From positions 1 through 21,154 of IMG/VR virus record IMGVR_UViG_3300048107_000282: DNA of 21,154 nucleotides. One strand, 5' to 3'. This stretch comes from a virus. Below, in pieces: positions 1 to 19,308 of this stretch. Below the pieces are notes generated by a model. It had not been told where the DNA came from and did not search any database. It worked only from the letters and a program-made list of their open reading frames with translations. Within the stretch, counting starts at the first letter, position 1. Each line of letters begins with the position of its first letter. The translations under genes and the position numbers were made by a program.

Positions 1-15
1 AGAAGGTTGAGCCAT
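1..15 (-). CDS. start of a further late gene, truncated by the window edge
   Basis: An ATG at 15-13 on the minus strand opens a frame reading M-A-Q-P-S before the window ends. An AGGGG ribosome-binding sequence lies about ten bases upstream, and a perfect TATAAATA late promoter lies at 50-43. The position, immediately after the preceding gene and on the same strand, fits another late structural gene. Only five codons are visible, so no product can be named and the call rests on the promoter, ribosome-binding site and start alone. Confidence 0.45.
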
Positions 16-46
16 AAAAAAATACCCCTAGTTTCCTAAGGGTATT
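16..46 (-). terminator. hairpin with T-tract, terminator or RBS-masking hairpin
   Basis: On the minus strand a 7-bp stem (AATACCC at 46-40 with GGGTATT at 27-21) encloses a loop of about 12 bases. It is followed by a run of seven T within TATTTTTTTAT, the classic shape of an intrinsic terminator for the gene ending at 65. The 3' arm includes the GGGG that would be the ribosome-binding site of the gene starting at 15, and the 5' arm overlaps the TATAAATA element. The same structure could therefore hide that site on read-through RNA. Confidence 0.7.
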
Positions 47-50
47 TATA
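43..50 (-). promoter_or_regulatory. T4-type late promoter TATAAATA
   Basis: This is an exact TATAAATA on the minus strand, between the stop at 65 and the next start at 15. In T4-like phages this octamer is the -10-type late promoter used with gp55 and the gp45 clamp. Transcription would begin about six bases further on, inside the hairpin at 46-21. Confidence 0.7.
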
Positions 51-64
51 ATTCCTAATGATGA

Positions 65-598
65 TCAGAAATCAATCGTATTTGCTGCGAGAAATGCTGG
101 AACCCAATTAGGATCAAATGCTGTAACATCTTCTTCCGTGGTAAGATTATTCAACAAAACTTCGTGGGCATTGTTGGCATCACGTGCTGCTTTTCTATAT
201 GCAGCAACTTTTGTTTGTCTAGTAGTTACACCTTCACCTTCAAGAGAATCTAATTCTTTTGCTCTTTCACCACGCCATGCAACGGGTTCAATAGCATCCG
301 AAATTAAAGATTTAATTCTAGCAGTTTTAACAGTTTTTAATTGATTAATCCGAGATGTTTCTGCTTCTAATAATAATAATGCTTGCTGTTCTTCTTTCGT
401 TTTACCAGCAAAACGATTAACAACAGTATCTTTAACATCATTTAATGTTAAAGATGAAATCTCCTCATTATCAGGATCAAAATTATATTCAACAATATAA
501 TCACCAGAGTCTAATGACTCCCCCTCAAAAGGGTTAGTATCCCACATATTTGTAGGAATTATATTTCCACTCTCTGTACTGAAAAAAATATATGCCAT
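65..598 (-). CDS. helical partner protein of the adjacent adhesin (possible fibre-assembly chaperone), copy 2
   Basis: This 177-residue protein has a beta-like N-terminus (residues 1-60, with a D-Y-I-V-E-Y strand) and then a long charged helical, probably coiled-coil, region (about 65-150). It is paralogous to the 168-residue product at 2660-2154. Both share the order (I/V)VEY, a Val-rich segment ending in RF.GKT..EQ.AL, an Arg-Ile helix, a W..ERA-type motif, and LTT.E...AF near the C-terminus. Each copy directly follows a large propeller-like gene. The pairing resembles phage fibre genes followed by small assembly chaperones (Tfa or gp38 type), so a chaperone or capping role is inferred; no family was recognised outright. 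The upstream AGGA is weak and distant from the ATG at 598. An AATAAATA late-promoter-like element lies at 633-622. A hairpin follows the gene. Confidence 0.8.
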   Translation of the reverse strand: MAYIFFSTESGNIIPTNMWDTNPFEGESLDSGDYIVEYNFDPDNEEISSLTLNDVKDTVVNRFAGKTKEEQQALLLLEAETSRINQLKTVKTARIKSLISDAIEPVAWRGERAKELDSLEGEGVTTRQTKVAAYRKAARDANNAHEVLLNNLTTEEDVTAFDPNWVPAFLAANTIDF

Positions 599-621
599 GT
601 GACTACTTTAATTTCCTATTA

Positions 622-633
622 TATTTATTTATT
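622..633 (-). promoter_or_regulatory. late-promoter-like AATAAATAAATA
   Basis: Two overlapping AATAAATA octamers on the minus strand each differ from TATAAATA by one base. They overlap the stop codon of the upstream gene (634-632) and sit 24 bases before the ATG at 598. The placement matches the exact late promoters elsewhere in the window. The mismatch makes activity uncertain. Confidence 0.45.
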
Positions 634-2113
634 ACGCTAGATTACTCTCTAATTGAGAACTAAACATAGAAGTGTTGTACATTGAAGGAACAATGAAAGG
701 ATATCCTGTACTATTTCCTGCAGTATCAAGCATGTAAGCTTTGTAATTATTATCAAATTCTGAGTACTCAGCTCCATCACTTCTTTTTGTGAATTCAAAA
801 TCTAAATCATGCACTCTAAAATAAGTACCTGGATCATCTTTATTGGTGGATTTTGAAACGATTATTTTATTTTTACCCAAAGGAGCAAGAGATCTTCCGT
901 GAGTACTATCTTGGTTTCGGAAATACATCCACTTACCATCTTTAACTCTTACGCATGCCCAATAGATGCCAGATCCATAATAATACGAAGGACAATATGC
1001 CCACCAATAATCACCACTACTACTTACTTGCCATCTAGAACCAAATCGCCTCCCTTGCTCATATCCATAAGTTGTAGTCCAACCTTGATTCCATACCATA
1101 CCAGCATATGTTCCATCTGCATTCCATTTTTCCAACTGGACACCATGACTAGGTGTCATTGTAAATGCAAATACTACTCCATTATCGCAAATACAAGTTT
1201 GGGATCTGTTATAAGCTTCAGAAGCACCGGAGTACGAAACGGCGCGATCAGTACTTCTATCGTATGCAGTATAATTTGCGGAATTATTAAAGAACTGATA
1301 AATTTTTGAATCACTATCAGATTTAGCATTACTTCCTTTAGGAGTTCCTTCAAAATGATTATTTGCAAGAGCATATGCTCTCCAATCCATTTGCACATCA
1401 GTATAAACGATAGGTTGACGCCTACCGTCACCATCAGTTTGCATCAAACAAACTTTTTTAGATCTAGTATTAATACATGAACCACCGTACATCCTATCGC
1501 TAGTAGTATCACTAGTGGAGACTCCCGCAGCAGTTTGGACTGGGATTTGGATCATATTTGCCCCCTCCCTAGTCCAATTATGATAATACTTAGCAGCATT
1601 TCTCCCACTAAACATCATTCTATGATTTCCACCACTTCCTTCTTTATTACAAAACCAAGCCCAATCTTGGTCTATATCACCTACAATAGAGTTAACATCT
1701 CTAAATGCATATGGAATAGAGCTCTCAACAGCTGGCCAACCACGAAGATATCCTGCAGTTTTAGTAAATTCAGTTACACTGACGTGTCCTTGATGTCCTA
1801 AGTAACCATTATTGCAAGTGTTGGAACCATAGTTTGATGAACTACCTGCATGACTTCCAGTCTCCTGGTAGGCACTACTAGCATAAGCATTAAAAAATTC
1901 TGGAGCGTAAGAAGTATATGTTCTAAATTGATTGTAATAATCGTTACCGTCGCCAACATACTTAGCAATCGGTTCTATATTGTGGTCAAATAATATCCAA
2001 CCACAACCATTAACACTATGCTGACATGCATAAGTAGCAAAACATGGTTGCGAATATGGATCTTGAACTTTTGATTTAACCGTTGCTGGTTTAGTACTAA
2101 TACTTCTTGCCAT
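632..2113 (-). CDS. large aromatic-rich propeller-like virion protein, probable adhesin, copy 2
   Basis: This 493-residue protein is paralogous to the 511-residue product at 4198-2663. Shared landmarks in order are PYSQPC near residue 28, a (Y/F)DHN motif, FRTY, EFF, GYLGH, FRDV, DGR..P.VY, CDNG, WTT.YGYEQGR, RWQVSS, AYCPSYYYGSGIYW, a DGK strand-turn, and a C-terminal Y.TS.F. The recurring strand-DG-strand pattern rich in Tyr and Trp suggests a beta-propeller, and the late-gene context suggests a receptor-binding protein; both are inferences. The start was chosen at ATG 2113 because MAR- aligns with the MARR- start of the paralogue. A TTG in frame ten codons upstream (2143) is less likely. 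No strong ribosome-binding site is seen. The 177-residue partner gene follows. Confidence 0.85.
   Translation of the reverse strand: MARSISTKPATVKSKVQDPYSQPCFATYACQHSVNGCGWILFDHNIEPIAKYVGDGNDYYNQFRTYTSYAPEFFNAYASSAYQETGSHAGSSSNYGSNTCNNGYLGHQGHVSVTEFTKTAGYLRGWPAVESSIPYAFRDVNSIVGDIDQDWAWFCNKEGSGGNHRMMFSGRNAAKYYHNWTREGANMIQIPVQTAAGVSTSDTTSDRMYGGSCINTRSKKVCLMQTDGDGRRQPIVYTDVQMDWRAYALANNHFEGTPKGSNAKSDSDSKIYQFFNNSANYTAYDRSTDRAVSYSGASEAYNRSQTCICDNGVVFAFTMTPSHGVQLEKWNADGTYAGMVWNQGWTTTYGYEQGRRFGSRWQVSSSGDYWWAYCPSYYYGSGIYWACVRVKDGKWMYFRNQDSTHGRSLAPLGKNKIIVSKSTNKDDPGTYFRVHDLDFEFTKRSDGAEYSEFDNNYKAYMLDTAGNSTGYPFIVPSMYNTSMFSSQLESNLA
969..1003 (-). repeat. 35-bp perfect direct repeat inside adhesin paralogues, copy 2
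   Basis: These 35 bases match 3006-3040 exactly, third codon positions included. They code for most of the AYCPSYYYGSGIYW core. Flanking sequence out to about 1090 stays similar but not identical, while most of the two genes has diverged far more. Confidence 0.9.
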
Positions 2114-2150
2114 TGGGAATATTGCAATATTTTGGGATATCAATCACCTA

Positions 2151-2158
2151 TATTTAGG
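2151..2158 (-). promoter_or_regulatory. late-promoter-like CCTAAATA
   Basis: This minus-strand octamer differs from TATAAATA at two positions, retains the AAATA core, and overlaps the stop codon of the gene ending at 2154. It lies 38 bases before the ATG at 2113. It is the only promoter-like candidate for the 493-residue gene. Confidence 0.3.
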
Positions 2159-2660
2159 CGAAATGTTCTTTGGTCTTAAATGCACGTAACTCTTCAATAG
2201 TTGTTAATGCATTTAAGTTTGCTTCTGCTTGATTTGATTTAGTTCTTACTGAATTTCTTTCTGTAAAGTATTTGGTTAGTTCATTGTTATTACCATTAAC
2301 TAAATCAGTATCGCGAGCTCTGGTTTCTTTCCATTCCATTCTCCTTAACAACTCTTTAGCATATAATTTAATATCTTCAGTTTTAAATTCAATTTCTATA
2401 TCAATTCGTTTTTGATCATCTTCTTCTTCAATTAAAGCAACTTGTTCTGCAATAGTTTTACCAGGAAATCTATTTGACATAGTTACATTATCATCCGCCA
2501 CTGTCATTGATGGTAGATAATCAGTTTCTTGCCAATCATATTCTACAATTAAAAGATATCCTTCAGGAGCTCCTCCACGTCCCCACTCTTCCGCTTCAAG
2601 TCTAGTATTGTATACACCAAAAGCTGATTTTTGATAGTTGTCGTATCCGATAAAAGCCAT
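2154..2660 (-). CDS. helical partner protein of the adjacent adhesin (possible fibre-assembly chaperone), copy 1
   Basis: This 168-residue protein is paralogous to the 177-residue product at 598-65. It has a short beta-like N-terminal part with L-I-V-E-Y near residue 40, then NRFPGKTIAEQ near 63-73, then a long highly charged helical stretch with E-E-E-D-D-Q-K-R and W-K-E-T-R-A-R, and LTTIEELRAF near the C-terminus. Its ATG lies two bases after the stop of the 511-residue gene. AGGA is placed for ribosome binding within the end of that gene, so the two are probably translationally coupled. Its role as a partner or chaperone for the upstream adhesin is inferred from the repeated gene pairing and size. 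No catalytic motif was seen. Confidence 0.82.
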   Translation of the reverse strand: MAFIGYDNYQKSAFGVYNTRLEAEEWGRGGAPEGYLLIVEYDWQETDYLPSMTVADDNVTMSNRFPGKTIAEQVALIEEEDDQKRIDIEIEFKTEDIKLYAKELLRRMEWKETRARDTDLVNGNNNELTKYFTERNSVRTKSNQAEANLNALTTIEELRAFKTKEHFA

Positions 2661-2662
2661 TT

Positions 2663-4198
2663 TTATAATCCTGCGATATTGGGCATGTTAGGTTCACTAC
2701 AGAATAGTGAAGTATCATATTTTGCTGGAATGATTCCTGCATATGCGGTAGTATCACATCCTCCTTCAAAATTTTGAGTCAACCAATTTTGAAGGTTTAG
2801 TTGATCACCGTAATTTTTTCTTTCCATTTCATATGCTATATCAACTGCGGCAATGTACATACCTGCACCGCCGTCTGTATTGATGCTTCCATTGAATCCC
2901 ATGCTACTTACACCAATCGGGAAAGGTTGGAAACCATAACTACTATCGTTGGTATAATACCATAAGATTTTACCATCAGAAATTCTAACAGCCATCCAAT
3001 AGATACCAGATCCATAATAATACGAAGGACAATATGCCCAAAAATACTTACCGTCGCTACTTACTTGCCATCTAGCACCATATTGCCTACCTTGTTCATA
3101 TCCATAACATGTAGTCCAACTTTGACCATGCCAATATTCACCATTTGGATTGAGACCACTGCTTGGTTGAGTTCTATCTTGCTCTTTAGTAGTACCATCC
3201 CATTTCCAAATAGTAAATCCCCAACTAGGAACCATATTGTAGCAAATGATATCTCCATTATCACATAGAACAGGTACAGGTCTATATCTAGCCTCCTCGG
3301 CACTACCCAGCTGGTTATAACCAGTCCAAGTGTTTAACTCCTGATACTCTGTGGCATTAGCAGTATTATGAAAATACTCATATAGTAAATTATCATTAGC
3401 ATCTTGGTTCTCACCGACCATCGCTGTCGTATACTGTTTGCTAGCATCGTGGGCAAAATGTCTAAGATCCGGGCAGTTGTTATAAACTACTGGTTTCCAT
3501 CTTCCATCACTAGTGGAGTACATAACAAGCAACTGATTAGTTTTCTTGTTATAGCAACATCCACCATGCGTGGTATGAAAATTTTTGCTACTACCGCTAC
3601 GATCGGTCCAAGTATTTGGAATGTAAGTTCTACCGGTATATGTATTATTATGCCTCAACATATTATATTGAGTAGCAGATCTTCCACCAAGAATTAATTC
3701 TTGTTTTGTTTGACTACCGCCGTTAGGAACAAAGATAGCATAATCTTGATGAGTTTCATTTACGATAGGGCAGACATCTCTAAAACCAAATGCTCTATAA
3801 CTGCTACCATTATCCCGACCAGATATGTTCCAACCACCATCATTACCAGATTGACCCCCTGGTGATGAATGCGACATATGTCCTAGATATCCAACCGCTG
3901 TAGTAAAGGATGCATAGTATCCACTATTACTACTTGGATTGTTATTGGTCTGAACACTTTGGTAACTACTTGTAGATTCAAAAAACTCGGAAGCGGTGGT
4001 AGAATAGGTTCTAAAAGATCCGTACCTGTCGCTACCATTACCATGAGTCGTAGCAATTATATTAAAGTTATGATCATACTGATAATAACCCCCGCCATGA
4101 GAATGGTTCATTGCGTATGCTGTAAAGCACGGTTGAGAATACGGATTAATCGTCTTCTGTTGTAGTGCAGTATCAGTTATTGTTAGTCTACGAGCCAT
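2663..4198 (-). CDS. large aromatic-rich propeller-like virion protein, probable adhesin, copy 1
   Basis: This 511-residue protein is the full-length paralogue of the 493-residue product at 2113-632. It starts MARR and carries PYSQPC near residue 20, YDHN, FRTYS, GYLGH, FRDV, a G-G-C-C-Y block, DGRWKPVVY, LCDNG, WTTCYGYEQGR, RWQVSS, AYCPSYYYGSGIYW, a SDGK turn, and YDTSLF near the end. Repeated strand-turn-strand units rich in Tyr, Trp and Asn suggest a beta-propeller-type adhesin; this is structural inference, and I did not recognise a named family. It is rich in Gly, Ser and Asn, and Cys is more frequent than in the neighbouring genes. AAAGGAC lies about eight bases before the ATG. The gene is followed after two bases by its helical partner. 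Confidence 0.87.
   Translation of the reverse strand: MARRLTITDTALQQKTINPYSQPCFTAYAMNHSHGGGYYQYDHNFNIIATTHGNGSDRYGSFRTYSTTASEFFESTSSYQSVQTNNNPSSNSGYYASFTTAVGYLGHMSHSSPGGQSGNDGGWNISGRDNGSSYRAFGFRDVCPIVNETHQDYAIFVPNGGSQTKQELILGGRSATQYNMLRHNNTYTGRTYIPNTWTDRSGSSKNFHTTHGGCCYNKKTNQLLVMYSTSDGRWKPVVYNNCPDLRHFAHDASKQYTTAMVGENQDANDNLLYEYFHNTANATEYQELNTWTGYNQLGSAEEARYRPVPVLCDNGDIICYNMVPSWGFTIWKWDGTTKEQDRTQPSSGLNPNGEYWHGQSWTTCYGYEQGRQYGARWQVSSDGKYFWAYCPSYYYGSGIYWMAVRISDGKILWYYTNDSSYGFQPFPIGVSSMGFNGSINTDGGAGMYIAAVDIAYEMERKNYGDQLNLQNWLTQNFEGGCDTTAYAGIIPAKYDTSLFCSEPNMPNIAGL
3006..3040 (-). repeat. 35-bp perfect direct repeat inside adhesin paralogues, copy 1
   Basis: This stretch is identical to 969-1003 over 35 bases and codes for the same conserved core. 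It is the longest exact match I saw between the two paralogous genes. Confidence 0.9.
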
Positions 4199-4230
4199 TA
4201 GATTGTCCTTTATAGTACTTATTCAAATAT

Positions 4231-4554
4231 TCAAGCGTTGCCGTCAATACCATAGGCAACTGCTGAAACTCCAGTTGACGATGCCCATACTTGAATACCG
4301 TTTGTGCTGTCAGCAAGGATGCCAGTTCTTTCAAGAACACCGTTTGCTGGAAGAGCAACATTATATTCAATGTTGTCTGCATCTGCAACAGTGGTAGTTG
4401 CCGCTAGTGCAATTCTAATTTGAACAGAACCAGAAGTTCTATTGCAAATATTAACAGTACAAACTTTAATATCTCCTGCTGAGGTGGGAGCGACTAATGT
4501 CTCCCAAGTTGAGGCGGACGCAACGTCCACCTTTGCATATACTCCTGACGCCAT
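4231..4554 (-). CDS. small beta-rich virion protein
   Basis: This 107-residue protein begins MASGVYAKVD and has a central A-T-V-N-type strand region (K-V-C-T-V-N-I-C-N-R, residues about 31-40), then alternating Val/Ile/Ala strands. LPANGVLERTG near residues 68-78 is followed by a Ser/Val-rich end. It resembles a family of roughly 100-residue proteins I associate with marine phage structural clusters; its function is unknown to me, but a small surface or fibre-associated beta-sandwich is plausible. It has a strong AAGGAG ribosome-binding site seven bases before the ATG. It also has its own exact TATAAATA promoter at 4602-4595, so it probably leads the transcript that runs into the duplicated adhesin cassette. 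Confidence 0.8.
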   Translation of the reverse strand: MASGVYAKVDVASASTWETLVAPTSAGDIKVCTVNICNRTSGSVQIRIALAATTTVADADNIEYNVALPANGVLERTGILADSTNGIQVWASSTGVSAVAYGIDGNA

Positions 4555-4594
4555 GTTAATGCTCCTTGTTAGATCTTGCTTATGGTGTTATGAT

Positions 4595-4602
4595 TATTTA
4601 TA
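4595..4602 (-). promoter_or_regulatory. T4-type late promoter TATAAATA
   Basis: An exact octamer on the minus strand, one base after the stop codon of the 1563-residue gene and 40 bases before the ATG at 4554. It would drive the 107-residue gene and probably the cassette behind it. Confidence 0.75.
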
Positions 4603-4603
4603 A

Positions 4604-7600
4604 TTACATTGCGGCAATGAAATAACCAATAGCGGTTACTTCATTTACAGCACTATCAACGTATGTCTTGACTGCCAACTGAGTTGGAACTGATATATCA
4701 TCAGCAGATCCACCAGCAAGAGTAACATCATTGTCAAATGATACACCCAGTACTGTAGTTTCAGTTAGAACTGAAGTTCCGTTAACGTGATATTCCTTAG
4801 AACCAGCAATATCAACATGCTCCGAAAGAACCCACTTATCACCGGATGCTGACCAAGAAATAGTCTTGTCGTTACCAGCTTTTACGGTAATACCACCACC
4901 GTCTCCAGTGACATCTGAAGGTCCACCAGCACTGAATACAGTACCAGTTGCACTACCACTACCTTGGAACACAGCACTTAATGTAACTGTACTTCCGTTG
5001 ACAGCAGAAACTGTATATGTACCAGACATAGTGACTGTACCGCCACCGGACGTTACTCCAACAGCAACACCAGGTGCTAGGTTAGTGGTATCACTTACAT
5101 TCGTGATGTCAGTTGAACCGGCACTGATATCACCGGTAAAACTACCAGAAGCAACTGTACCAAGTTCAATGTTACGATCTTTGGAAGTAACAGTAACAGA
5201 ATTAACAGAAGTTGTAGTTCCTTTAACAGTTAAGTTTCCTCCAACTGTAAAGTCAGAACTAACTGAATTCAGTGTGCTGACATAAGTAACGACTGCTGCC
5301 TGAGTAGGAACTTTCTCGTTACTGTTCTGCGCCATCGTGCCATCAGTTGAGAATTCGTTAATAGCAGCACCCAACTGAGCACCGATAGAACCAAGTCTCA
5401 AACTTGATAGACCAGATAGATCAAACGCAGAAGCATCTAGAGTTGCTTTACCAGTTGCCTGTTCAACTTTAAAGTACTTACCAACTGCAAAGTTACCATC
5501 TTGGTCAGTAGATACGTAGTAAACACGACCAGGACGTGATTCGTCAGTTTCCTGTGAAGGAACATTTGGTGATAGGGGAAGACCAGGCCAATTCGTATTT
5601 GCTTGACTTCCAGTACCAACGTCTAGGAAATCGTGTGCAGTTAATCTAACTTGAGAATAACGATAACGAATCTTAAAGTCTTGACCATCGCCAGCAGCAA
5701 TTACTTTCTCGTCAGCAAATAGTAACGTAGTAATACCAGTAGTATCAGGAGTTACTGCACTAATGAGGAAGAATTCATTACCAACCTTAACAAAATCATT
5801 TGCTTCAAAGTTAAGATCCGCACGTTTGATACGTAGGAAGAGTTGTGCATCTGTAGCATCTTCAATTAGTTCATCTTGTGAAGTAACCTTAGTTTGATAA
5901 ATGCTTACTGCATCACCCTGTGCATGATTTTGTGCAACAGTTCCGTCTTGTGCCCTAGCAACTTCAATTTGGTCTGCAGCGACAATTGCTACAACCTTGA
6001 AGAGTTCCTGGTTAACAACAACATAACCGTTTGCAATCATTCCAGTAACGCTTGCAACACCCATGATGTATGGTGCTGCTTCAGTACCTGTTGAGGTAGA
6101 GTTGATAGCACCACTCAAAGTGGTTGATACAGCAGTTGCGTTCTCTGGGTAGTGTGTTACACTAGTAGTACCATTATGCGTTGCTGCAGTTGATCCTAGA
6201 GCGCCTCTGTTGACTGTTAGCGAACCTCTACCATCTGGAGCAGTATAGCTGGAGTTGGAGATAACGTATGAACCAGCGTCATCATTAACTCCATTATCCT
6301 GCATCTCAACAGAACCACCTTGGTCAGGACCATATGAAAGATCAACAACCGTAAGGACAAAACCTTTTTGTCCGGTAACTGCATCAGTATTATTAACGAG
6401 GGTAATATATGCAGATGAAAGTTGTCCTGTAATTACTTCACCTTGTACAAAGGTTCCTGTAATTGGGAAGTAGTAAAGGTAACCAGATGGTGATTGATCG
6501 CTGATCAACTCACCAATTGCACCTGAAGTACCACCAATGATTCTTTCACCTGGAGTAAATCCGCCATCTTTAGCACCAGCAGGATTAATTTCTAGACGAC
6601 CACCTTTGATTTTACCGTTAACGGTAGATTCATTAGCATCAAATCCTCTAGCAATTGCACCATACTTACCATAAGAAGAGTTACCAGAAACACCACGAAT
6701 TCTACCACCTCTTGTAGAGGTGTATGAAATGTGATTATAATATGTGAAGCAAGATACAATCTCAGTTGCAGCACCTCTAGTTACATAGAAACCAATACCA
6801 CCATCAAGGATTTGGGTATAGGAGTCAAACACCATTGACTTGTTTGACTTAGTTGAGGTGTTATCAAAGTGTTCGTGAGTACCACCATCAAGTACAACAC
6901 CTACAGCAGCACCACCAATTGCGGCACAGTTTTGAACATAAGGTGACTTAGTAATCGGTGAATTTGGATTAAGTCTGAAGTATACACCTTTAAGCGTTCC
7001 ATGATCTGTGTTCTTATCATCTGGAGCATAAGGAACAAATCCAGACATGCCTTCAAATACCATATCTTTAATGGTATTTGCAGTAGACAGGAAGAACATC
7101 GTGGTTTCCTGGTTAGGAATACCAGCAGCAGTCGTGATAGACTTGTATCCATCATCATTAGTAAGTGCAGTAAGATTGCCTGAGAATAGCGAACCTGCTG
7201 CTAAATCGCATAAAGTTTGTACTGCTGCAGTTTGAGTTGCACAGAATCCAGGATCACTGGTAATTGTATTATCAATTACTTGATTGATGACGTTATTCGT
7301 TGCTGCAGATACTGTTTCATTTTTAACTACCTGAATACCAGCATCACGAATAATATCAATAAGTAATTTATCTTCAGAACCAACAGTGGTAATAGCATCA
7401 GAACCACCGGCAATAACAGCAGTTGCAAAAGCATGAACTCTGTCATTACCACCGGATCTTACTTGAGCAGCAAGTTCTACAACAAACTCCTCCAATCTTA
7501 GGCGGATATCAGCAGCAGCACCAGTAGGATTTGAACTTTGATCTGCAACAAATTTATAGTATGCTTGGTGAGCAAGGAAAGTTTTGTTTGAAACTAAAAG

Positions 7601-9295
7601 ATTTGCAGCATCAGCAGACGAATTGGAAATTGTATTTGTCCATTTGTCTGCTGTATTCCAAGCACCACCTGTAACCTGTTGAATAGTAACAGTATTTGTT
7701 TGAGACTCTAAAATTCTAGCAGTCTTAGTTCTAACTGAGTTAGAAACGATATCTCCATACTGGAAAGAATCTGCTGCCTGAGAAAGAACTAGATTTTGAG
7801 AAGTAGAATTAAAACCTGATTTTGGTTTAACCTTTGAAGTTCTTAGGTTATCACCAACAATAGAAACAAATTCAGGAACTACAATCGGAAGAGTTTCTTC
7901 GTAGACACCTGCTTTGAGGTAAATTGCAATAGGATTTGTTGCACTGGCTGCGTCTGCACCAGTTAAAGCATTAATAGTATCACAGGCATAACGTAAACTA
8001 CCAAATGCTCTTGAGATTGATCTACCGCTATTTGAATCGGAACCTTCTTTGGTTACGTAGTAAACAGCATTTGATACATTATTAGATTCCCATCTTGGCA
8101 GAATAGGTGAACCTCCAACAGTCAGAATCTGACCACTTGCTTCTTTAAGTTCTGCTGCAGTTGCAGTATTTGGATTTGCTGGTAATGCAATTCTGTTAAT
8201 ACCAGATGCAGATTGATAAAGAAGGTCACCAGTTTCTTGTAGTACCTGAGCAGCGTCACCACCTTGAGAGACGTAGTTCCAATAAACTGCAGTAGTATCA
8301 AGTTCCGGAGCAGTTGTTGCACCAGTAGTGTTAGATCTAATACAAACGTAAGAGTTACCGTTTCTATTAACGACATCACCTAGTTGATAAACTGCGCCAT
8401 TATTCCATGCAGCGTTCCAGTTTAGACCTTCAAGAACTAGATCCCAGAATCTTGTATTAGTTGGATATGGGATATAAACAATACTACCGCCAGTAGCACT
8501 AGCAGTCTCAGTACTTTCAATCGTAAATCCGGTAGTCGTAGATAATTTAACGCGGAATGCTGTGTTGTATTGAGCAGCAGATGTTCCGGAAAGTGTTACT
8601 AAATCACCAACACCAAATGGTGCGACAGGTTGAGCAGCATCAAATACAACTGTTACTTCACTGCCATCACCACTGATAGTGGCGATAGTGTAAGACTCAG
8701 GAGTTGTAGTAAGTTTACATGAGTAAGCATTACCACCATACTTGACAAGATTTCCTGGTTCGTATACTTCGTTGCTATCAAAATCACCTTGTGGTGAGAA
8801 GCCAGTTGAAAGAACTTTCCAATAAAGTTCATCCGTATTTGGTGCTACGTTAGTAGAATTTTGTTGTGCTGTGTATGTGTAACCACCAAAGGTTACAATG
8901 TCACCTTTTTGGTAGATAGTTGCGGAGGACCAAGTATCTTCAAAATTTAGACCTTCCGAATAAACTTCAAACTTAGCGAAGTCAAAACTTGCAGGACCAG
9001 TATGTGCCGTAGTACAACGATATACCGTATTGCCGTACTTGACAAGATCGTTTAGTGAATACCAAACTCCAGTCGTTTGATACTCTCCGCGATTTCTAAG
9101 ACCTTCTGTTTGAAGATCCCAATTTCCTAGGTCGGAAGAATAAAAACTAGTTTCCGTATTTGCGGAAGTGTGATTGGTGGTACAGACATATGCGTTTGCA
9201 CCGTACTTGACAATATCGTCAATGACATAAGCAGTGCTCGCCGTCCAATCACCGCGCCACTTAAACTTCAGTCTGCCGAGTCTAAAATCTGCCAT
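4604..9295 (-). CDS. tail fibre/spike protein with binding repeats, pectin-lyase-like beta-helix and tail-fibre C-terminus
   Basis: This 1563-residue protein has five N-terminal repeats of about 45 residues (about 14-60, 69-113, 118-162, 168-287, 292-342). Their pattern is W or aromatic, then Y...D.V.(Y/F)G...Y.C, as in small chitin/cellulose-binding-type modules. Repeat 4 carries an insertion of about 75 residues. From about 411, YYVTKEGSDSNSG, an A-F-G-(S/T)-L-R-Y-A segment and AIYLKAGVYEE match the start of a right-handed pectin-lyase-like beta-helix. Near 1260-1380 come GRVYYVSTDQDGNFAVGKYF, a TQAAV-TYV motif and N-L-T-V-K-G-T-T-T-S-V-N...N-I-E-L-G, familiar from tail fibres of marine T4-like phages. 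GGGITVK...KTISW and a final TQLAVKTYVDSAV close the protein. AAGGAT precedes the ATG. A surface-polysaccharide binding or cleaving role is inferred; catalytic residues were not identified. Confidence 0.9.
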   Translation of the reverse strand: MADFRLGRLKFKWRGDWTASTAYVIDDIVKYGANAYVCTTNHTSANTETSFYSSDLGNWDLQTEGLRNRGEYQTTGVWYSLNDLVKYGNTVYRCTTAHTGPASFDFAKFEVYSEGLNFEDTWSSATIYQKGDIVTFGGYTYTAQQNSTNVAPNTDELYWKVLSTGFSPQGDFDSNEVYEPGNLVKYGGNAYSCKLTTTPESYTIATISGDGSEVTVVFDAAQPVAPFGVGDLVTLSGTSAAQYNTAFRVKLSTTTGFTIESTETASATGGSIVYIPYPTNTRFWDLVLEGLNWNAAWNNGAVYQLGDVVNRNGNSYVCIRSNTTGATTAPELDTTAVYWNYVSQGGDAAQVLQETGDLLYQSASGINRIALPANPNTATAAELKEASGQILTVGGSPILPRWESNNVSNAVYYVTKEGSDSNSGRSISRAFGSLRYACDTINALTGADAASATNPIAIYLKAGVYEETLPIVVPEFVSIVGDNLRTSKVKPKSGFNSTSQNLVLSQAADSFQYGDIVSNSVRTKTARILESQTNTVTIQQVTGGAWNTADKWTNTISNSSADAANLLVSNKTFLAHQAYYKFVADQSSNPTGAAADIRLRLEEFVVELAAQVRSGGNDRVHAFATAVIAGGSDAITTVGSEDKLLIDIIRDAGIQVVKNETVSAATNNVINQVIDNTITSDPGFCATQTAAVQTLCDLAAGSLFSGNLTALTNDDGYKSITTAAGIPNQETTMFFLSTANTIKDMVFEGMSGFVPYAPDDKNTDHGTLKGVYFRLNPNSPITKSPYVQNCAAIGGAAVGVVLDGGTHEHFDNTSTKSNKSMVFDSYTQILDGGIGFYVTRGAATEIVSCFTYYNHISYTSTRGGRIRGVSGNSSYGKYGAIARGFDANESTVNGKIKGGRLEINPAGAKDGGFTPGERIIGGTSGAIGELISDQSPSGYLYYFPITGTFVQGEVITGQLSSAYITLVNNTDAVTGQKGFVLTVVDLSYGPDQGGSVEMQDNGVNDDAGSYVISNSSYTAPDGRGSLTVNRGALGSTAATHNGTTSVTHYPENATAVSTTLSGAINSTSTGTEAAPYIMGVASVTGMIANGYVVVNQELFKVVAIVAADQIEVARAQDGTVAQNHAQGDAVSIYQTKVTSQDELIEDATDAQLFLRIKRADLNFEANDFVKVGNEFFLISAVTPDTTGITTLLFADEKVIAAGDGQDFKIRYRYSQVRLTAHDFLDVGTGSQANTNWPGLPLSPNVPSQETDESRPGRVYYVSTDQDGNFAVGKYFKVEQATGKATLDASAFDLSGLSSLRLGSIGAQLGAAINEFSTDGTMAQNSNEKVPTQAAVVTYVSTLNSVSSDFTVGGNLTVKGTTTSVNSVTVTSKDRNIELGTVASGSFTGDISAGSTDITNVSDTTNLAPGVAVGVTSGGGTVTMSGTYTVSAVNGSTVTLSAVFQGSGSATGTVFSAGGPSDVTGDGGGITVKAGNDKTISWSASGDKWVLSEHVDIAGSKEYHVNGTSVLTETTVLGVSFDNDVTLAGGSADDISVPTQLAVKTYVDSAVNEVTAIGYFIAAM

Positions 9296-9306
9296 TTTTT
9301 AAATCC

Positions 9307-9675
9307 TTACTTAGGTCCTTGAGTGTTATGATCATATGATTTATTTAGTCTTGCAACTAAGTAACCATCATCATCAATGAAATATGTCAAGCGTCTGAAA
9401 TCAAACCTGAACTGTTGGTATTTATCATCAGTGTCATTTGAATATTGTCTCGCAACATTAGGTGTTGCATCTACATATTCAGTTCCTTGGAGAAAATCTT
9501 TATATTCTTCTCCATCAGTTCTGTGAAAATCGTAAACTACGTCTTCTGTTGATCTCGCATTAGTATAATGAAGCATACCGTCCTTATCTCTTCTCAGAGC
9601 GTGTACGGTAAAGTCATTTGAATTTGCAACATTTTGTTCTTGTGTTGCAGTACTTGCACTAAGATATAAACTCAT
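9307..9675 (-). CDS. hypothetical virion-associated protein
   Basis: This 122-residue protein is acidic and rich in Asp, Tyr, Arg and Asn. It has a Thr-Val-His-Ala-Leu-Arg-Arg-Asp strand near residue 22-30, a Y-D-F-H-R segment near 47, and Q-F-R-F-D-F-R-R-L-T-Y-F-I-D-D-D-G-Y-L near 88-106. I do not recognise a family. Its start overlaps the stop of the upstream gene in ATGA, with a near-perfect GGAGGATC ribosome-binding site, so it is translationally coupled to the 152-residue protein. Its stop lies 11 bases before the start of the giant fibre gene. The context suggests a small linker or connector for one of the fibres. An intragenic TATAAATA at 9816-9809 could give it extra transcript. Confidence 0.75.
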   Translation of the reverse strand: MSLYLSASTATQEQNVANSNDFTVHALRRDKDGMLHYTNARSTEDVVYDFHRTDGEEYKDFLQGTEYVDATPNVARQYSNDTDDKYQQFRFDFRRLTYFIDDDGYLVARLNKSYDHNTQGPK

Positions 9676-10130
9676 GCTAAGATCCTCCAGTAAATTCCGT
9701 CCCAGATAAACTGAACATATAAACCAGCAACATCTAAAACAAATACGCTATCAGTATTTCCAAATTTATTCAAAAATAACTGTCCATTACTGGATGTTAG
9801 CGTGACATTATTTATAGCCCATGTTGCTTTAAAATCAACTAGTTCCAGCACATCACCAACGTGAGGAACAACTCCCGCTGATTCAAATGGCATAGTTAAT
9901 GATAGCGCACTTGCACTAGTATCAATTAACCATCTAAGTCCGCATGATAAACTTGTATCTGTATTGACAACTTCCCATCTCGTTCGTTGGAGTTCAAACC
10001 CTCCAATATCACTACCATCATGTACAACCGCTGTTTTTTTATCGGTATCTACCGTAAGTTCAGCTAACGCACCTGTAAATAGTGCGTGTTCGGAAGTTGT
10101 GCCCTTTCTAAATTGTACCTGAGTGGTCAT
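9672..10130 (-). CDS. short fibre-type protein with Mtd/tail-fibre N-terminal repeat
   Basis: This 152-residue protein has an N-terminus that reads VQFRKGT, then A-E-L-T-V-D-T-D-K-K and V-V-H-D-G-S-D with G-F-E-L, over residues 4-50. This is the (I/V)Q.R(R/K)GT...L..GEL...TDT....HDG pattern of the N-terminal segment of the phage major tropism determinant and of many tail fibres. The rest is beta-rich (V-G-D-V-L-E-L-V-D-F near 94; Y-V-Q-F-I-W-D-G-I-Y-W-R near the end). It is thus a short receptor-side or connector protein. No good ribosome-binding site is visible, but an exact late promoter lies at 10164-10157. The gene overlaps the next by four bases. Confidence 0.8.
   Translation of the reverse strand: MTTQVQFRKGTTSEHALFTGALAELTVDTDKKTAVVHDGSDIGGFELQRTRWEVVNTDTSLSCGLRWLIDTSASALSLTMPFESAGVVPHVGDVLELVDFKATWAINNVTLTSSNGQLFLNKFGNTDSVFVLDVAGLYVQFIWDGIYWRILA
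9809..9816 (-). promoter_or_regulatory. possible intragenic late promoter TATAAATA
   Basis: An exact octamer on the minus strand inside the 152-residue gene, 134 bases upstream of the ATG at 9675. It could supply transcript for the 122-residue and 1563-residue genes, which lack a promoter of their own. Being inside coding sequence, it may also be chance. Confidence 0.35.
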
Positions 10131-10156
10131 TATTAGCGCACAGTTTTTCTATGATC

Positions 10157-10164
10157 TATTTATA
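10157..10164 (-). promoter_or_regulatory. T4-type late promoter TATAAATA
   Basis: An exact minus-strand octamer in the gap between the stop of the 2173-residue gene (10168) and the ATG at 10130. It sits 26 bases before the start codon and probably drives the 10130-to-4604 transcript. Confidence 0.75.
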
Positions 10165-10167
10165 GAA

Positions 10168-13100
10168 TTAAATCATCCAAACATATGTGCGAGGTGGTTG
10201 GAACAACTCAACTTGTACAATTCCGAATCCACTAATTGCAATTGAACCACTTGCAATATAAGGAGCACGTGCAAATGCCTCATCTCCATTAATAAATCCA
10301 AACAACGTTCCAGATCCGGCATAAGCACGGGATCTGATGGTTGTACTAATACCATTAACATTAATTTTAACGAATGGTTGCTCAGAGAATGTAAGTAATG
10401 GATCTCCGGATGTTCCTTGAAGTGTAAATTTGCCGGGAGTACCAAGTTCTCTTGCGGTAATTTTTTCGGATATTCTTTCTCCCGCAAACGAGAAGAGCAT
10501 TTGCTTCTCGTCTGGATTGACAGTGAGAGATTCTGCTGCACCAGATAGAGTTGGGATAATACCAAACCCAACAAAATCTCTTGCTCTTGTAGTAGTTGCA
10601 TTTCCACTGAGAGGAATTGTTCCTTCTCCAGTGTGTGCAAATCTGACAAGAACACCAGCTTCTCCAGATGCTTTGAACAATCCACCCTGACTGACTTCTC
10701 TTGCAGTTGTATTTTCTGTTCCTGCACCAATGAACGAGAAGAGCATTTGCCTCTCGTCTGGATTGAAGGTAACCGACTCTGCAGATCCCGATAGTTTTCT
10801 GAGTGAACCAGAACCAACATGTAGTACAGAGATTTTGTTGATAGAATCTCCGGAGACCTTGAACAGAACTTGTTCTGTCTGTGGTACAACTCCAGTAGAT
10901 TCTGATACTCCACCAAATCCGAAGAGTGAACCAGTACCAATAATACTGCGATGAGTGGTGAAGAATACTTTGCCACTGATCTTCGTCTGAACAAATGGTT
11001 GTTCTGCGAACGTAAGTAATGGATCTCCAGATGTACCAGAGAATGTAAATGTTCCACCTTGACTGATTTCTCTGACAAGAATTCTTTCTGTACCTTCTCC
11101 TGTAAAGGAGAAGAGCATTTGCTTCTCGTCTGGGTTGAAGGTAATAGATTCGGCACTACCTGCAAGAGCAAAGATATTACCAGATCCAATGTTGTTCGGA
11201 ACAAACTTCTCTGTAACAACACCAGAAATTTGAGCAGAACCAGAACCTGTGTATACACTGGTAAGATTTTCTTGACCTTCTCCAGTAATATCAACTTCAA
11301 TCTGTTTGATTTCAGTAGCACTGAAGGATTCTAATGCTTCCCCAATGAAGGAGAAGAGCATCTGACGTTCATCTGGATTAAACGTTACAGATTCTGCAGC
11401 ACCATTGATAGCGAAGATATTACCTGATCCGATGTTATTAGGAACATATCGGACAAATACATCACCAGAAATTCTTAGATCAGCTTGTAGTTCTGGCGAT
11501 GCAGTGAAGGATTCTGATAGACCACCAATTCCGAATAGAGAACCAGTACTAAATTCAACAATAGATGTAGTCTCTGCAATTCTCGTTCCAGTAAACGAGA
11601 AGAGCATCTGTCTCTCTTCTGGATTGACAGTAAGAGATTCTGCAGATCCGGAGAGTGTTTTGAGTGAACCAGAACCATTGTGTAGTAGACTGAAGTTTGT
11701 TTTTGCTTCACCACTAACTGGGATAGTACCAGTAACAACCCAAGATGGTTGCCAATCAAAGGTCTCAAAGTCAGATAGCGCACCTCTGCGAATTCTGATT
11801 GCTTTTTCAATACCAACATAGTTCTCGGTATGAGTCTCTTTTCCTTCTCCAATAAAGGAGAAGAGCATTTGTTTCTCTTCTGGATTGACAGTGAGAGATT
11901 CGGATGCACCAGAGAACTTCCTGAATGTACCAGTACCAACAACACTTGGAACATAATGTGTCTTGGCAATACCACTGACAGGAATAACTCCAAATGGTTG
12001 CTCTGCAAATGTAAGGATCTGAGGAGTTGTATCTCCAGATAGTCTGATTTCAGTTCCTTCTTCTGGTGGATTGGCAGAGAATACTTCTTCGGATGTACCA
12101 CCAAATTTGATATGTGCAGTAAATGCCGGAAGTCTCTTGGTGAGAGACTCGGAACTAATTCCGTTAGAGAAGATAGCACCACTTCCAATAAAGTCTCTTG
12201 CTCTTGGAGTTGCAGCAACACCAGAAACATTGATAGTTCCAAATACAAAGTGATGAACAAGTACACGTTCAACCAGATTATTAACAGTGAATAGACTTCC
12301 TGTTCCTGTGTATGGAACAGTAAAGCTTTCTGCGAGAACACCAGATAGTTTGATGTCTGTGGTAATATCTGGTGGGTTGAATGATACTGCTTCCGCTGCA
12401 CCATTGATTCCGAATAGTGAACCAAATCCTGTAAATGCTCTTGCTCTTGGAGTTTCTGCAATTCCGGAAACTGGAATTGTACCTTGAGATACCCAAGAAG
12501 GTTGCCAATCGTAAGTAACAAATCTGCTGAACGGACCAGGAGATACTTTGAATAGAAGTTGTACTTCGTCTGGTGAGTATCTTCTGCTTTCTGTGGCACC
12601 ACCGAATCCGAATAGAGATCCACCACCAAATGTTCGTAGACTGAATAATGGAATCGCTGCATTGCGAACAAGAATCGGTGGAGATATATTGTTCCATTGA
12701 GGTGGAACAACAACGAATGCATCTCCAACAATCTTGATGACTGTACTTTCCGTAAATATAGAAGTATTACGAATGTACTTCTCAACCAGTGTACCCTTGA
12801 GTGAATCAAGTTGACCGAATGGACAGACAAGACCAGTAGTATCAAGGATATGTCCGTAATCTGTCAGTCCATCTTCTGTATCTGATACATCCTGATAGTC
12901 TGCGAATACTGTTGGTACAGTTGTAAATGCAGTTAATGTATAAGTTACTCCAGGATCAATTGATAATGTAGATCCTAGAGTTACCTTTGTGCATCCAGAA
13001 GACGATGTGGTATTTGTAGAAACGACCCCATCAACATCAACACATACACTATTTGCAGAAAGATCAACGATTCTTCCATAATCAAGTTCAGGTTCGTCTC

Positions 13101-16100
13101 TACAGAGATCCATACTGTAAACTTCAGTATGCTTCTCTTCTGAAAGTTCACTGAGTTCTGGTTTCTTGGAACATAGAGTAATAGAACCAGTAGTCTCATA
13201 TGCATATTGAACTCTAAGATCTCCACCACTAACTGCGAATAGAGAACCAACACCTTCATGTGCAAGACAAATTCCTGGATCTCCAGATGTACCAACGAAT
13301 GTGAAGATTGGTTCTTCGGTAGGAGGAACTGAAGTAGTAGACTCTGCTGTTCCTGTATATCCAAATAAAGTTCCTGTTCCCTTAATACCAACGGTAATAC
13401 CAATCGCAGTATCACTACGGAATCCGAATAAACCATCACCTGGTTGTATTAGACTGAAGTTAGTCTTGGAATTTCCGCCAAGTTTGATCTGACCACTACC
13501 AATTTCACTAGCAAATAGTGGGGAGATTGCAACACCACTAATATCAATAAATCCACGACCGTTATAATTTGGAGTGAATTTAACATCACCAACTCCAAAG
13601 ATATCAATCTGACCGTAGATACATGCAGGTAATCCTTGTCTTGGAGTTCCAAGAATATGACCATGATCAACTAGAGGTGAAGCATTCTCTGCAACAAATC
13701 CATAATCCAGAGTAGAAGATGGAACTGTGTATTGTGGAGTAATGGTGTAAGTAACACCAGGATCAACTGCTAAGGAATTGAGTACCTTGGTGCATCCAGT
13801 TGCAGACGTGGTATCTGTAGAAATAATACCGTCAACATCAACACAAGAAACTGCATTCGGATCAATAATAAATCCGTAATCTGGTTCGGTGAATGGTGCA
13901 ATAGAACTACAGTTGTAACTGTAAACCTTGACTTCCTCAAGATTGTTGAATCCAAAGAGTCCACCAGAACCAACGTAATCGTATACAGTTCTTTCAACTG
14001 CAGTTTGTAGAGTGAATAGAACACCACTACCAATCCAGTTAGGATTGAATGCAAACGTTGCTTCTCCAGTAAAGGAGAATAGAAGATCTCTTTCGTCTGG
14101 GTTAAAGGTAACAGAATCTGCAGCGCCACTGAGAGTTGGGATAAGACCATCACCAAGTATACCAACGCCAATTCCAATCTGAGATTCACTATGGAATCCA
14201 AATAAACCATCACCTGGTTGCAGTAGACTAAAGTTGGTAATGGAATCACCACCAAGTGTTTTGATGCTTCCTGAACCAAATACAGTGACATCAAGAGGAA
14301 CTCTACCTTCACCAAAGATACTAATGCCACCCTGAGATATCCAGTTAGGTGCAAGACTATTAACAGATTCACCTGTGATATCAATATGACCGTAAATACA
14401 TCCTGGCATTCCGAGACGTGGAGTACCAAGAATATCTCCAAAGTCTGCAAGAGGAGCTGCGTTCTCTGAAGTTAATCCATAATCTAAGACACTAGATGCA
14501 ATAGTATTCTGAGGTCTTACTGAATAATTAACACCTGGATCAATTGTTAACGAATTGAGTACCTTGATGCATCCAGACGTTGTTGTTTCACTCGTAGAAA
14601 TAACACCGTCAACATCAACACATGCAATTGCTCCTGTGTTGATAATAAATCCATAGTCGTTCTCTGGGAAAGGAACGATAGAACTGCAGTTATAATCGTA
14701 TACTTTCTTCTCTTCAAGATTATTAAATCCGAAGATTCTTCCAGATCCAACATAGTCATATACAGTTTTCTCAACTGCAGTTTGTAGAGTGAATAGAACA
14801 CCACTACCAATCCAGTTGGGATTAAAGGAGAATGTTGCCTCTCCAATAAGAGAGAACAATAAATCTTTTTCTTCTGGATTAAAGGTAACGGACTCTGCAG
14901 AACCATTAATACTTGGAATAAATCCTGTTCCGGTAATTCCGGCAGTAATACCAATTTGAGTATCACTACGGAATCTGAATAAACCATCACCTGGTTGCAA
15001 CAGAGCAAAGTTCGTGATGGAGTCTCCACCAAGTGTTTTGATACTTCCTGTACCAAATACGGATACATCCAGAGGAACACTAGCTTCACCAGTAAGTTTA
15101 CTGATGTATCCTCTACTTGTCCAAGTTGGATTAAACGCAAACTGCGCTCCATTTTCTGGATCAAGATGGAACAATCCAAACGGAATAAGATTGCTAGTCG
15201 TTAAGATATTACCAAAGTCTACCTGTGGTGCAGCAGATTCTGATATTAGACCATAGTCAATAAAGTTACTAGGAGCATTAGCACCTAGACTTACATCATA
15301 AGTTGTTCCTGGATCAATACTCGCAGTTGATCCCACACGTACAATACATCCGGAAGATGTTCCAGATAATGTTCCTGATACATCTTCAATATCACTTGGA
15401 TGACATATAGTTAGATAACCATAGTCTGCCTTAGAGAATTCAATGATACTATCATTGATGTATCTTTCTGTATGTTTTTCGTCTGATAGTTCAGGAAGTT
15501 CTGGTTTTCTGCTAACCAGTTTAAGTCCACCAGATCCAACGAACGCATTTGTAGCGCGTTGCTGTCCATTAGATAGAGTGAATAGATCTCCAAATCCTGT
15601 TTCATGTACAAGAGTAATATCTCTTGCAGCACCTGTAACCTTACTAATATATCCGCTACTAGTCCATGTTGATACGAATGCATCATCTGTACTTGCAATC
15701 GTAAATAGAGTACCAGAACCAAAGATTCCAATACCAATACCAATACCCGAATTTCCAAGTATGGAGGTAGTTCCCGCACCGTCGTGCTTGCCAGAAAATA
15801 CCCCCAGACTTGTACCACTAAGACCTTTGACTTTTCCATCAACGATATAACCGTATACTGCTGGTGAAGTCTGTCTACCAAAGGTAAACGCAATACCTGT
15901 ACCTTCGTATGTGTTAGTCGCCTTCCAAGACGCTTCGCTAACAACTTTAACAAATCCGAAAGATTCTACATTAGTTACATAAACAACTCTGCCGTAATCT
16001 TCTAGTGTGGCATTGATATCTGAAATATTACCAAAATTTATTGTTGGTAATACTGGAGTTGTTGTATGTGTATATGTTACTGATTTTAATCCATAGTGAT

Positions 16101-16689: not shown

Positions 16690-16701
16690 ACACTAACAAG
16701 C

Positions 16702-16732
16702 ATTAAAAATGAGGATTGCAAAATTGCAACCC
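16702..16732 (-). terminator. probable intrinsic terminator between the 471- and 2173-residue genes
   Basis: On the minus strand GGGTTGCA (16732-16725) pairs with TGCAATCC (16720-16713) around a four-base loop, with one G-T pair. CATTTTT follows the stem. It lies in the longest intergenic gap of the window, 42 bases after the stop at 16774. The T-run is short and two bases away from the stem, so termination may be partial. Confidence 0.5.
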
Positions 16733-16773
16733 CCACAAAAGATAACTAAAAACTGGGTCTCTAGTATATAGGG

Positions 16774-18189
16774 TCAGTCTAGGCTGACGTTTAGAGTAAC
16801 CTTAATTTGGTCACCGTTGTTTTGAATAGCGTATGGACCATTAGTAAATCTTTCTGCAAAGAAAATACTAGCGTAAAGAGTCGCATCACCAGTTCCTGAT
16901 AAAGCAGGGGTTGTGGTAAATGTTGATGACGTTGGAGTCTCAAATACGGTGTAGTGTGCAGCAGGGATAGAGCTACTAGAACCTTGTGCAATGTAGATAA
17001 CATCGCCAGGATTTAGATTATGATCTAAAGCACTGCCACCGGGGTCTGAAGTGACGATAGAGTAATCATATAGAATTGCGTCATTACCGTTAGATACCTG
17101 AATGTTATCAACTAGCAATTCACTTAGATATACACGAGGACCGATTTCACCGGTTTTAGTTTCTAGATCAATACCAACAATAGTTGTTGTTGCAGCAATA
17201 CCATTTGGAGATGCAGTTTGGGAAATTGCCATACCAACAGTTAGATTTTCTGCGACATTAACTTGGAATGTTGCAGTACCAGAAGCAGCACCAGTAAGTG
17301 CTTTGTCTAGGTAAATTGCTGTTCCTGAAATACCAACAACACGAGTTTGTGCTGCAATACCAGTACCAGTAACTCTCTGACCAATAGCAACATTAGTTGC
17401 AGAATCAACTGCAATTTCATATGTTCCAGAAACACCAGAAGTAATCGTTGGAGTTACATTAACATCAAGAAGGTTAACATAGTTGTTACCAATAACACCT
17501 TTACAACCAGACTTAGTAATTTGAGATCCTGAAGCAACACTACCACCATCAACTACGCCTTGTAAAGTAACAGGCATGTTGTTTGCACGAGATAGGTAAT
17601 ATCCGTAAACGCTACCAGCAGCAGAAGTGAAGGTGAAAACTTGTTCGGGGTAAGAAGCGGTAGTTCTACCTCTACCAAAGGAAACTGCAGTTGTACTCAT
17701 AGTTGCAGTCAATTGCTGACTCAACTCAAGATCTAGACCTTGGATATCAACAACATAGGTGTTTGTAGGGATACCAGCACCTTCTGCATAGTCTCCTTTT
17801 TTAATATCAGCAGCATCATTAACTGTAATTGCATAAGTTCCAGAAGTTCCGTCAGCGGTTCTTCCTGTTGCAACTGCATTTAAAGTTGTACCAATATCCC
17901 AACGGTTACCATTGAGAAGGATACCATACTGTTCGGTGAAGTCTTGATCTTCTTCAGTACGATTGTTAACTACTTCGGGATAACCCGTGGAAGGGCTTAC
18001 GCCATAACCAGCAGAGTTGCTAGCATCGTATGGTTCGTAATAATTCGCTACTGATGGAACATCCGATTCAGCAGGGGTGGTATTACTGGTGTATAGTTTT
18101 AGAACTAAGTTCCTGGGAATTTTATGAGTCGCGTTCAGTAGTGTACGTAGCGAATCAATTTCACCCTGGTCTGTGACTAGAAGTGCCAT
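16774..18189 (-). CDS. virion structural protein with N-terminal phage module and three beta repeats
   Basis: This 471-residue protein has an N-terminus (MALLVTDQGEIDSLRTLLN, then LVLKLYTSNTTP near residues 28-39) that matches a pattern I know from marine phage structural proteins starting MALLV...GE with an LKLY.N..TP strand. From about residue 115 to 320 there are three repeats of roughly 60-70 residues of the type N(V/L)..G....G.GI...T.VV.I.G..(I/L)(Y/E)L. These are beta modules common in phage fibres. The C-terminal part is also beta-rich (N-P-G-D-V-I-Y-I; T-V-F-E-T-P near 415-430). It has a strong AAGGAGAT ribosome-binding site before ATG 18189. Two TATAAATA elements lie upstream, at 18234-18227 and 18286-18279. 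The exact particle position is unknown. Confidence 0.85.
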   Translation of the reverse strand: MALLVTDQGEIDSLRTLLNATHKIPRNLVLKLYTSNTTPAESDVPSVANYYEPYDASNSAGYGVSPSTGYPEVVNNRTEEDQDFTEQYGILLNGNRWDIGTTLNAVATGRTADGTSGTYAITVNDAADIKKGDYAEGAGIPTNTYVVDIQGLDLELSQQLTATMSTTAVSFGRGRTTASYPEQVFTFTSAAGSVYGYYLSRANNMPVTLQGVVDGGSVASGSQITKSGCKGVIGNNYVNLLDVNVTPTITSGVSGTYEIAVDSATNVAIGQRVTGTGIAAQTRVVGISGTAIYLDKALTGAASGTATFQVNVAENLTVGMAISQTASPNGIAATTTIVGIDLETKTGEIGPRVYLSELLVDNIQVSNGNDAILYDYSIVTSDPGGSALDHNLNPGDVIYIAQGSSSSIPAAHYTVFETPTSSTFTTTPALSGTGDATLYASIFFAERFTNGPYAIQNNGDQIKVTLNVSLD

Positions 18190-18226
18190 TCAACGATCTC
18201 CTTGTGTTTCTTACCTATGTTAATGT

Positions 18227-18234
18227 TATTTATA
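18227..18234 (-). promoter_or_regulatory. T4-type late promoter TATAAATA
   Basis: An exact octamer on the minus strand in the gap between the stop at 18241 and the ATG at 18189, giving a leader of about 30 bases that includes AAGGAGAT. It is among the best placed late promoters in the window. Confidence 0.8.
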
Positions 18235-18240
18235 CAAAGC

Positions 18241-19301: not shown

Positions 19302-19308
19302 GATGGAA

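Follow-up and report, generated by a model that had tools for sequence, protein, structure and literature searches.

What are the two pairs of genes that lie between a tail fibre gene and the neck genes of this phage, and how did there come to be two of them? The window, by which we mean the whole stretch analysed, comprises 21,154 nucleotides (IMG/VR virus record IMGVR_UViG_3300048107_000282, positions 1 to 21,154), and the cassette occupies 4198-65 on its minus strand. The order on the coding strand is p107, B1, s1, B2, s2 and gp13, where B stands for the large and s for the small protein of each pair. The 493 aa of B2 are counted from an ATG; the mechanical open reading frame begins earlier, at a TTG, and has 503 aa. 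The features that matter here are as follows.

9672-10130, minus strand: 152-aa protein with a Major tropism determinant N-terminal domain (PF18454, E 1e-12), by profile
4604..9295, minus strand: tail fibre protein of 1563 aa (phrog_9851), a conserved neighbour, by profile match and synteny
4595..4602, minus strand: TATAAATA upstream of p107 and the cassette, by motif scan; in the same place in most loci
4231..4554, minus strand: p107, 107 aa; stands before the cassette in nearly all loci, and occurs in cultured cyanophages too
2663..4198, minus strand: B1, 511 aa, putative adhesin, predicted to be beta-propeller-like; intact reading frame, relatives in 56 IMG/VR loci
2970..3125, minus strand: stretch of B1 DNA, counterpart of 933-1088; conserved core
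2154..2660, minus strand: s1, 168 aa, small partner of B1, with an alpha/beta N-terminal and a helical C-terminal domain; intact reading frame
632..2113, minus strand: B2, 493 aa from ATG, paralogue of B1; intact reading frame, in the second-copy clade of the trees
933..1088, minus strand: stretch of B2 DNA, 82% identical to 2970-3125; conserved core with the gene-conversion signal
65..598, minus strand: s2, 177 aa, small partner of B2 and paralogue of s1; intact reading frame, second-copy clade
43..50, minus strand: TATAAATA, about 35 nt ahead of gp13, by motif scan
20..47, minus strand: terminator-like hairpin after s2, 12 pairs followed by a T run, from the sequence
1..15, minus strand: start of gp13, a T4-like neck protein (MAQPS...), from the sequence; gp13 adjoins an identical cassette in L001/L003

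Genomic setting of the cassette

The initial annotation took the 511- and 493-residue proteins for paralogues, and likewise the 168- and 177-residue proteins, so that a whole large-plus-small unit would have been duplicated with both copies kept open. This holds throughout. B1 and B2 are 36% identical over 515 columns, nearly their whole length (E 1e-88), and s1 and s2 are 35% identical over 127 columns (E 4e-15). None of the four reading frames is interrupted, and the trees discussed below show the duplication to be ancient. The similarity of B1 and B2 is visible in DNA too, with 156 nt (933-1088 vs 2970-3125) that are 82% identical.

B is encoded at 56 IMG/VR loci. A complete B-s-B-s is present on 24 of the contigs, a single B-s between p107 and gp13 on 23 and a B-B-s on two (L067 and L069). 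The remaining loci are truncated at contig ends, and one population accounts for several of the contigs. Gene order is nearly strict, running p2173-MtdN152-p122-tail fibre-p107-(B-s) once or twice-gp13-gp14-gp15. In every intact pair s comes directly after B, beginning 2-77 nt behind it (2 nt past the stop codon in the case of s1), or with a 4-nt overlap in L067. The pairing is borne out by the profile search, in which s lay behind B in every intact locus and the small protein was not regularly found alone. In eight of nine virus records B and s are equal in number, the ninth having two B and one s, and no B or s was found elsewhere in these nine. L067 (6537-9811) and L069 (6530-9811) form a distant lineage in which B is duplicated without s and gp13 is not adjacent. 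psbA was looked for in the 195-kb L067 record and none was found.

What kind of phage carries the cassette? A 192,818-bp contig with an identical cassette has two Photo_RC genes (psbA/psbD type) together with the T4 major capsid gene gp23, which makes the phage a cyanomyovirus. In cyano- and pelagimyophages the host-recognition cluster is a variable tail-fibre block ahead of the neck genes (PMC7029224). The cassette is the last block of this cluster in a T4-like cyanophage: it shares its neighbourhood with tail fibre genes, the neck genes follow, and the T4-like phage carries genes for photosynthesis. The 1563-aa tail fibre finds its matches mostly in Synechococcus and Prochlorococcus myoviruses. 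Among prokaryotes, searched with one genome each for 84,980 species, there was a single match, a 9.3-kb contig of an archaeal MAG. This contig (L096 1-9283, binned as Euryarchaeota) carries tail fibre-p107-B-s-B-s, the same phage synteny, and is for that reason almost surely a misbinned cyanophage fragment. A toxin-antitoxin or metabolic pair was rejected on location and synteny.

The expression signals point to a late gene set. We take TATAAATA to be the T4 late promoter motif. The window has seven copies, at sites from 43 to 19511 and always on the coding strand, a number that none of 100 shuffles reaches. In nearly all loci examined it stands before p107 and again about 35 nt before gp13. 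With this motif ahead and the terminator-like hairpin behind, p107-B1-s1-B2-s2 is likely to be transcribed as one late-made unit. Extra internal copies of TATAAATA lie before B2 in L017, L019, L021 and L022, and before s2 in L004, L008, L009, L012 and L043. The two copies may consequently differ in expression level in some tandem lineages.

The proximity of gp13, which adjoins the cassette in all loci reaching it except L067/L069 (where it lies further off), lends itself to another explanation. B and s might form a neck or collar fibre, not a baseplate adhesin, with s retained in the virion as a structural clamp. In T4, wac (the gene for fibritin, the neck whisker) follows directly behind gene 12, the corresponding place, and cyanophage A-1(L) has multi-component neck fibres with a carbohydrate-binding tip (PMC10966104). 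However, the hairpin and a separate late promoter motif divide s2 from gp13, whereas p107 and the fibre genes lie on the cassette's side of the terminator. The B and s models are not long coiled coils like fibritin, and cultured cyanophages hold glycine-rich adhesin-like genes in this slot. We consider a neck fibre unlikely, and return to a distal-tail adhesin as the preferred reading.

The contents of the slot in cultured phages bear on this directly. Profiles of B and s found neither family in S-CAM1, P-SSM2, S-SSM7, Mosig or AG-345-P14. Behind p107, S-CAM1 has three paralogous glycine/cysteine-rich proteins (phrog_4205) plus a 241-aa protein, and P-SSM2 has two glycine/cysteine-rich proteins around a 225-aa one. 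In S-SSM7, where p107 was not recognised, three glycine/cysteine-rich proteins lie behind the tail fibre gene, accompanied by one of 267 aa that carries the tail assembly chaperone domain Phage_tail_APC (E 1e-9). In AG-345-P14 the slot is filled by a 282-aa protein and then a 122-aa one. B-s, unrelated to these genes, is one way of filling the slot, and the fillings in S-CAM1, P-SSM2 and S-SSM7 indicate that tandem adhesin-like genes with a small companion are a recurring habit of it.

Some observations concern the neighbours. p107 itself has a weak match to the tail-fibre profile phrog_11338 (E 2e-4). The 152-aa protein at 9672-10130 (minus strand) shows weak similarity to T4 gp9/10 and is kept in most relatives. 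The 2173-aa protein (phrog_11522; 10168-16689, minus strand) has many degenerate repeats, e.g., FNPDERQMLFSFIGEG, and a tandem repeat finder reported none at the DNA level for this gene. The tail-gene region at 19537-21153 (minus strand) encodes a 376-aa protein and the glycine-rich end of another, neither with a PHROG match; this end resembles glycine-rich adhesin tips.

Sequence families and predicted folds

No named family had been recognised for either protein at the outset, and Pfam has no match for either. The PHROG scan gave nothing useful for B and, for s, only phrog_26358 (function unknown, E 4e-5 at best). The glycine-rich adhesins of phrog_4205 were absent from the families matched by any B member. 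None of five tblastn queries (B1, B2, s2, and one distant member each of B and s) matched any of 50,697 phage records. The search evidently works, since the neighbouring 1563-aa fibre gene does match in the same records. B and s are unnamed families, unmatched in these 50,697 public phage records, a collection that may omit records very near the window and to which the absence is confined. A sequence search of the PDB gave no meaningful match for B or s. Ubiquitin matches of s in that search were discarded, as no stretch passed on its own.

The AF2 model of B consists mainly of strands (mean pLDDT 73, pTM 0.82). Foldseek matched it to 34 PDB entries at E ≤0.001. Going by their names most of these are propeller proteins, and the best are Photorhabdus propeller lectins (E 3e-5, TM-score ≤0.38). 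Profile self-comparison found no internal repeat in B. To call B propeller-like seems a fair label for the predicted fold, if not a firm one, and we hold it with modest confidence. Could B then be an enzyme? The Foldseek matches include neuraminidases and prolyl endopeptidase propellers (E 3e-5 to 7e-4), which would suit a glycan-cutting protein, either a depolymerase or a sialidase-like propeller, with s as its folding partner. However, these matches reflect the propeller scaffold in general, at 7-11% identity, and no enzyme family was matched. A glycan-cutting B appears highly improbable, and an adhesin built on such a scaffold remains the reading we prefer.

The model of s is more confident (mean pLDDT 93). 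It has strands at 2-7, 12-17, 36-41, 52-54 and 61-63 with one short helix, followed by helices at 70-107, 109-122 and 126-151 and two short ones. The initial annotation had described s as a helical partner. This is right for the C-terminal part, but the model also places a small alpha/beta domain at the N-terminus. Within the s family mean identity rises from 27% in the N-terminal part to 35% in the helical part, and reaches 43% over residues 105-150.

Is s a tail-fibre chaperone? One clue is position, because its gene lies directly behind an adhesin gene. Another is architecture. The N-terminal domain of Pam3 gp25 is five-stranded with a short helix and its C-terminal domain has four helices, the N-terminal part being variable and the C-terminal part conserved (PMC9608196). 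A variable N-terminal beta domain and a conserved helical C-terminal domain are likewise predicted for s, a likeness drawn from the published description of gp25. Homology is another matter. Foldseek of s against the PDB gave no significant fold match, and a fold search among viral models gave weak matches, none of them significant. When s was compared with Phage_tail_APC (PF16778) and Caudo_TAP (PF02413), no member of A4 or A5 matched. With hhalign, s scored 27% against the Phage_tail_APC set over a short motif (erkAIRD/YRQaLRD) in the C-terminal domain (0.1% for reversed and unrelated controls) and 0.5% against Pam3 gp25, with which no direct homology was found. The analogy with phage fibre/chaperone pairs that was first proposed thus stands as regards position and architecture, while comparison with chaperone family profiles gave either no match or the 27% over a short motif. 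By analogy, s would resemble a tail-fibre chaperone; given the lack of a significant PDB match and the two hhalign values, it is not filed as a member of that family.

Duplication, exchange and divergence of the copies

The two pairs are not the product of a recent duplication, which the B and s trees rule out. The B tree divides the genes of 11 phages into two well-supported clades, one of first and one of second copies, and the s tree shows the same division for these phages. The duplication is thus older than the split of at least 11 phage lineages. Two groups depart from this pattern. In L021/L022 and L057/L058 the B copies pair with each other, whereas the first-copy s genes group with other first copies (support 83, moderate). 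When B is divided, the first 340 residues of the two L057/L058 copies group one with first copies and the other with second copies, whereas the C-terminal part pairs within the lineage. The split-B trees and the s tree are in keeping with a single early duplication of the whole unit, after which the B copies exchanged sequence. For L021/L022 a separate duplication is also conceivable.

Further evidence of exchange comes from synonymous codons common to B1 and B2. In the core (approximately residues 362-410, about 45 codons) they make up 0.71 within a locus vs 0.53 between loci, an excess that none of 10,000 permutations equals, and they peak at residues 361-385 (0.82 vs 0.57). Elsewhere in the gene the two values lie close together (0.53 vs 0.49). 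Genome-wide codon preference is a poor explanation because the signal is confined to the core, and so is a common DNA constraint, which would raise the between-locus value too. Assembly of short reads across similar copies is the remaining caveat, and here the contigs of two related phages (L001 and L002) agree. The signal of exchange between the B copies is clearest over these core codons, and the mechanism is presumably gene conversion.

Related contigs were compared in ten pairings. The resulting dN/dS is 0.22-0.68 for B, 0.10-1.03 for s and 0-0.22 for gp13/gp14/gp15, as Nei-Gojobori values without recombination correction, which recombination may distort. The cassette proteins evolve faster than the neck proteins, and a raised dN/dS does not by itself name a function. 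Synonymous distances in several pairs (L004 with L008 and L009) are three to four times as large for B as for the tail fibre and p107, which would follow from diverged alleles being swapped into an otherwise similar genome.

Perhaps the two copies are simply a matter of dosage, supplying more of one structural subunit that binds alike. The most conserved segment of B is kept alike between copies and many relatives have one copy only, both of which would be in keeping with this. However, across all tandem loci identity amounts to only 35-52% between B1 and B2 and 23-39% between s1 and s2, and first and second copies form separate clades in 11 phages. Dosage copies are therefore quite unlikely, and two distinct adhesin types are the preferred reading.

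The proposal that each partner is specific for its own adhesin has fared less well. Adjacent B and s co-diverge with r 0.93 vs an average of 0.68 with swapped partners, and none of 5,000 swaps is as high. Yet this is no proof of partner specificity, since genes copied together co-diverge anyway. In L021/L022 and L057/L058 (in the latter in the C-terminal part) the B copies became more alike than their s partners, and in L067/L069 two B genes share a single s. B copies that are alike with unlike s, and a lineage with B-B-s, argue against a strict one-to-one specificity.

Proposed function and known counterparts

On balance, B1 and B2 are probably late-made distal-tail adhesins and s1 and s2 their assembly partners. 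How might such a module work? p107 and B1-s1-B2-s2 would be made late in infection, probably from one transcript. B would be a virion adhesin whose body is the predicted beta-propeller-like domain, and its elevated dN/dS and location suggest that it varies mainly in loops and so diversifies cell-surface binding. Each s would help to assemble the B whose translation immediately precedes its own. By analogy with Pam3 gp24/gp25, its C-terminal helices may oligomerise and its variable N-terminal domain may hold the folding B. The ancient duplication of the whole unit, which the trees establish, would have given two adhesin types, and short exchanges between the B copies, presumably by gene conversion, would keep the core alike as the rest diverges.

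A stronger version can be put forward tentatively. B may be an adhesin family not described before, which has s as its dedicated partner and is common among uncultured cyanophages. Repeated short gene conversion in a shared core would then keep the two adhesins of a phage compatible while their loops diversify, giving two kinds of receptor binder per virion. That the two copies have two receptor specificities is a guess. The binding targets of cyanophages on their hosts are largely unknown and few of their adhesins have been named, and B-s offers a defined, compact candidate pair. If the reading is true, two adhesins were kept by duplicating adhesin and partner, letting them diverge, and copying a short core back and forth.

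The best reading overall is that the family is new but the module, an adhesin with its assembly partner, is of a known kind. The cassette has the same place as the host-recognition cluster of cyano- and pelagimyophages (PMC7029224), although B and s have no good PHROGs or Pfam match and none in the 50,697 records. T4 fibritin (wac) has the same position, behind a short tail fibre gene and before neck genes. However, fibritin is a triple coiled coil, and its long segmented coiled coil has no counterpart here: B is mainly strands by prediction, and s (168 aa) is modelled as an alpha/beta domain with a helical bundle. The Photorhabdus lectins PLL and PHL are the best fold matches of B, but at about 10% identity and a TM-score of 0.38 at most, and B is longer, with many loops.

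Closer in organisation is Pam3 gp24/gp25 (PDB 7YPX, PMC9608196). Here too an adhesin gene is followed at once by the gene for a protein of 160-180 aa, and gp25 and, by prediction, s combine a variable beta domain at the N-terminus with a better conserved helical domain at the C-terminus. In contrast, gp24 is TNF-like plus a glycine-rich fibre, whereas B is predicted to be propeller-like, and Pam3 has one copy of the pair where the window has two. The phrog_4205 and phrog_35878 proteins of S-CAM1 and P-SSM2, and the similar ones of S-SSM7, share the slot, the tandem duplication and the small gene alongside, although they are unrelated to B in sequence. In these three phages several adhesin-like genes share one small gene, whereas the window alternates large-small-large-small.
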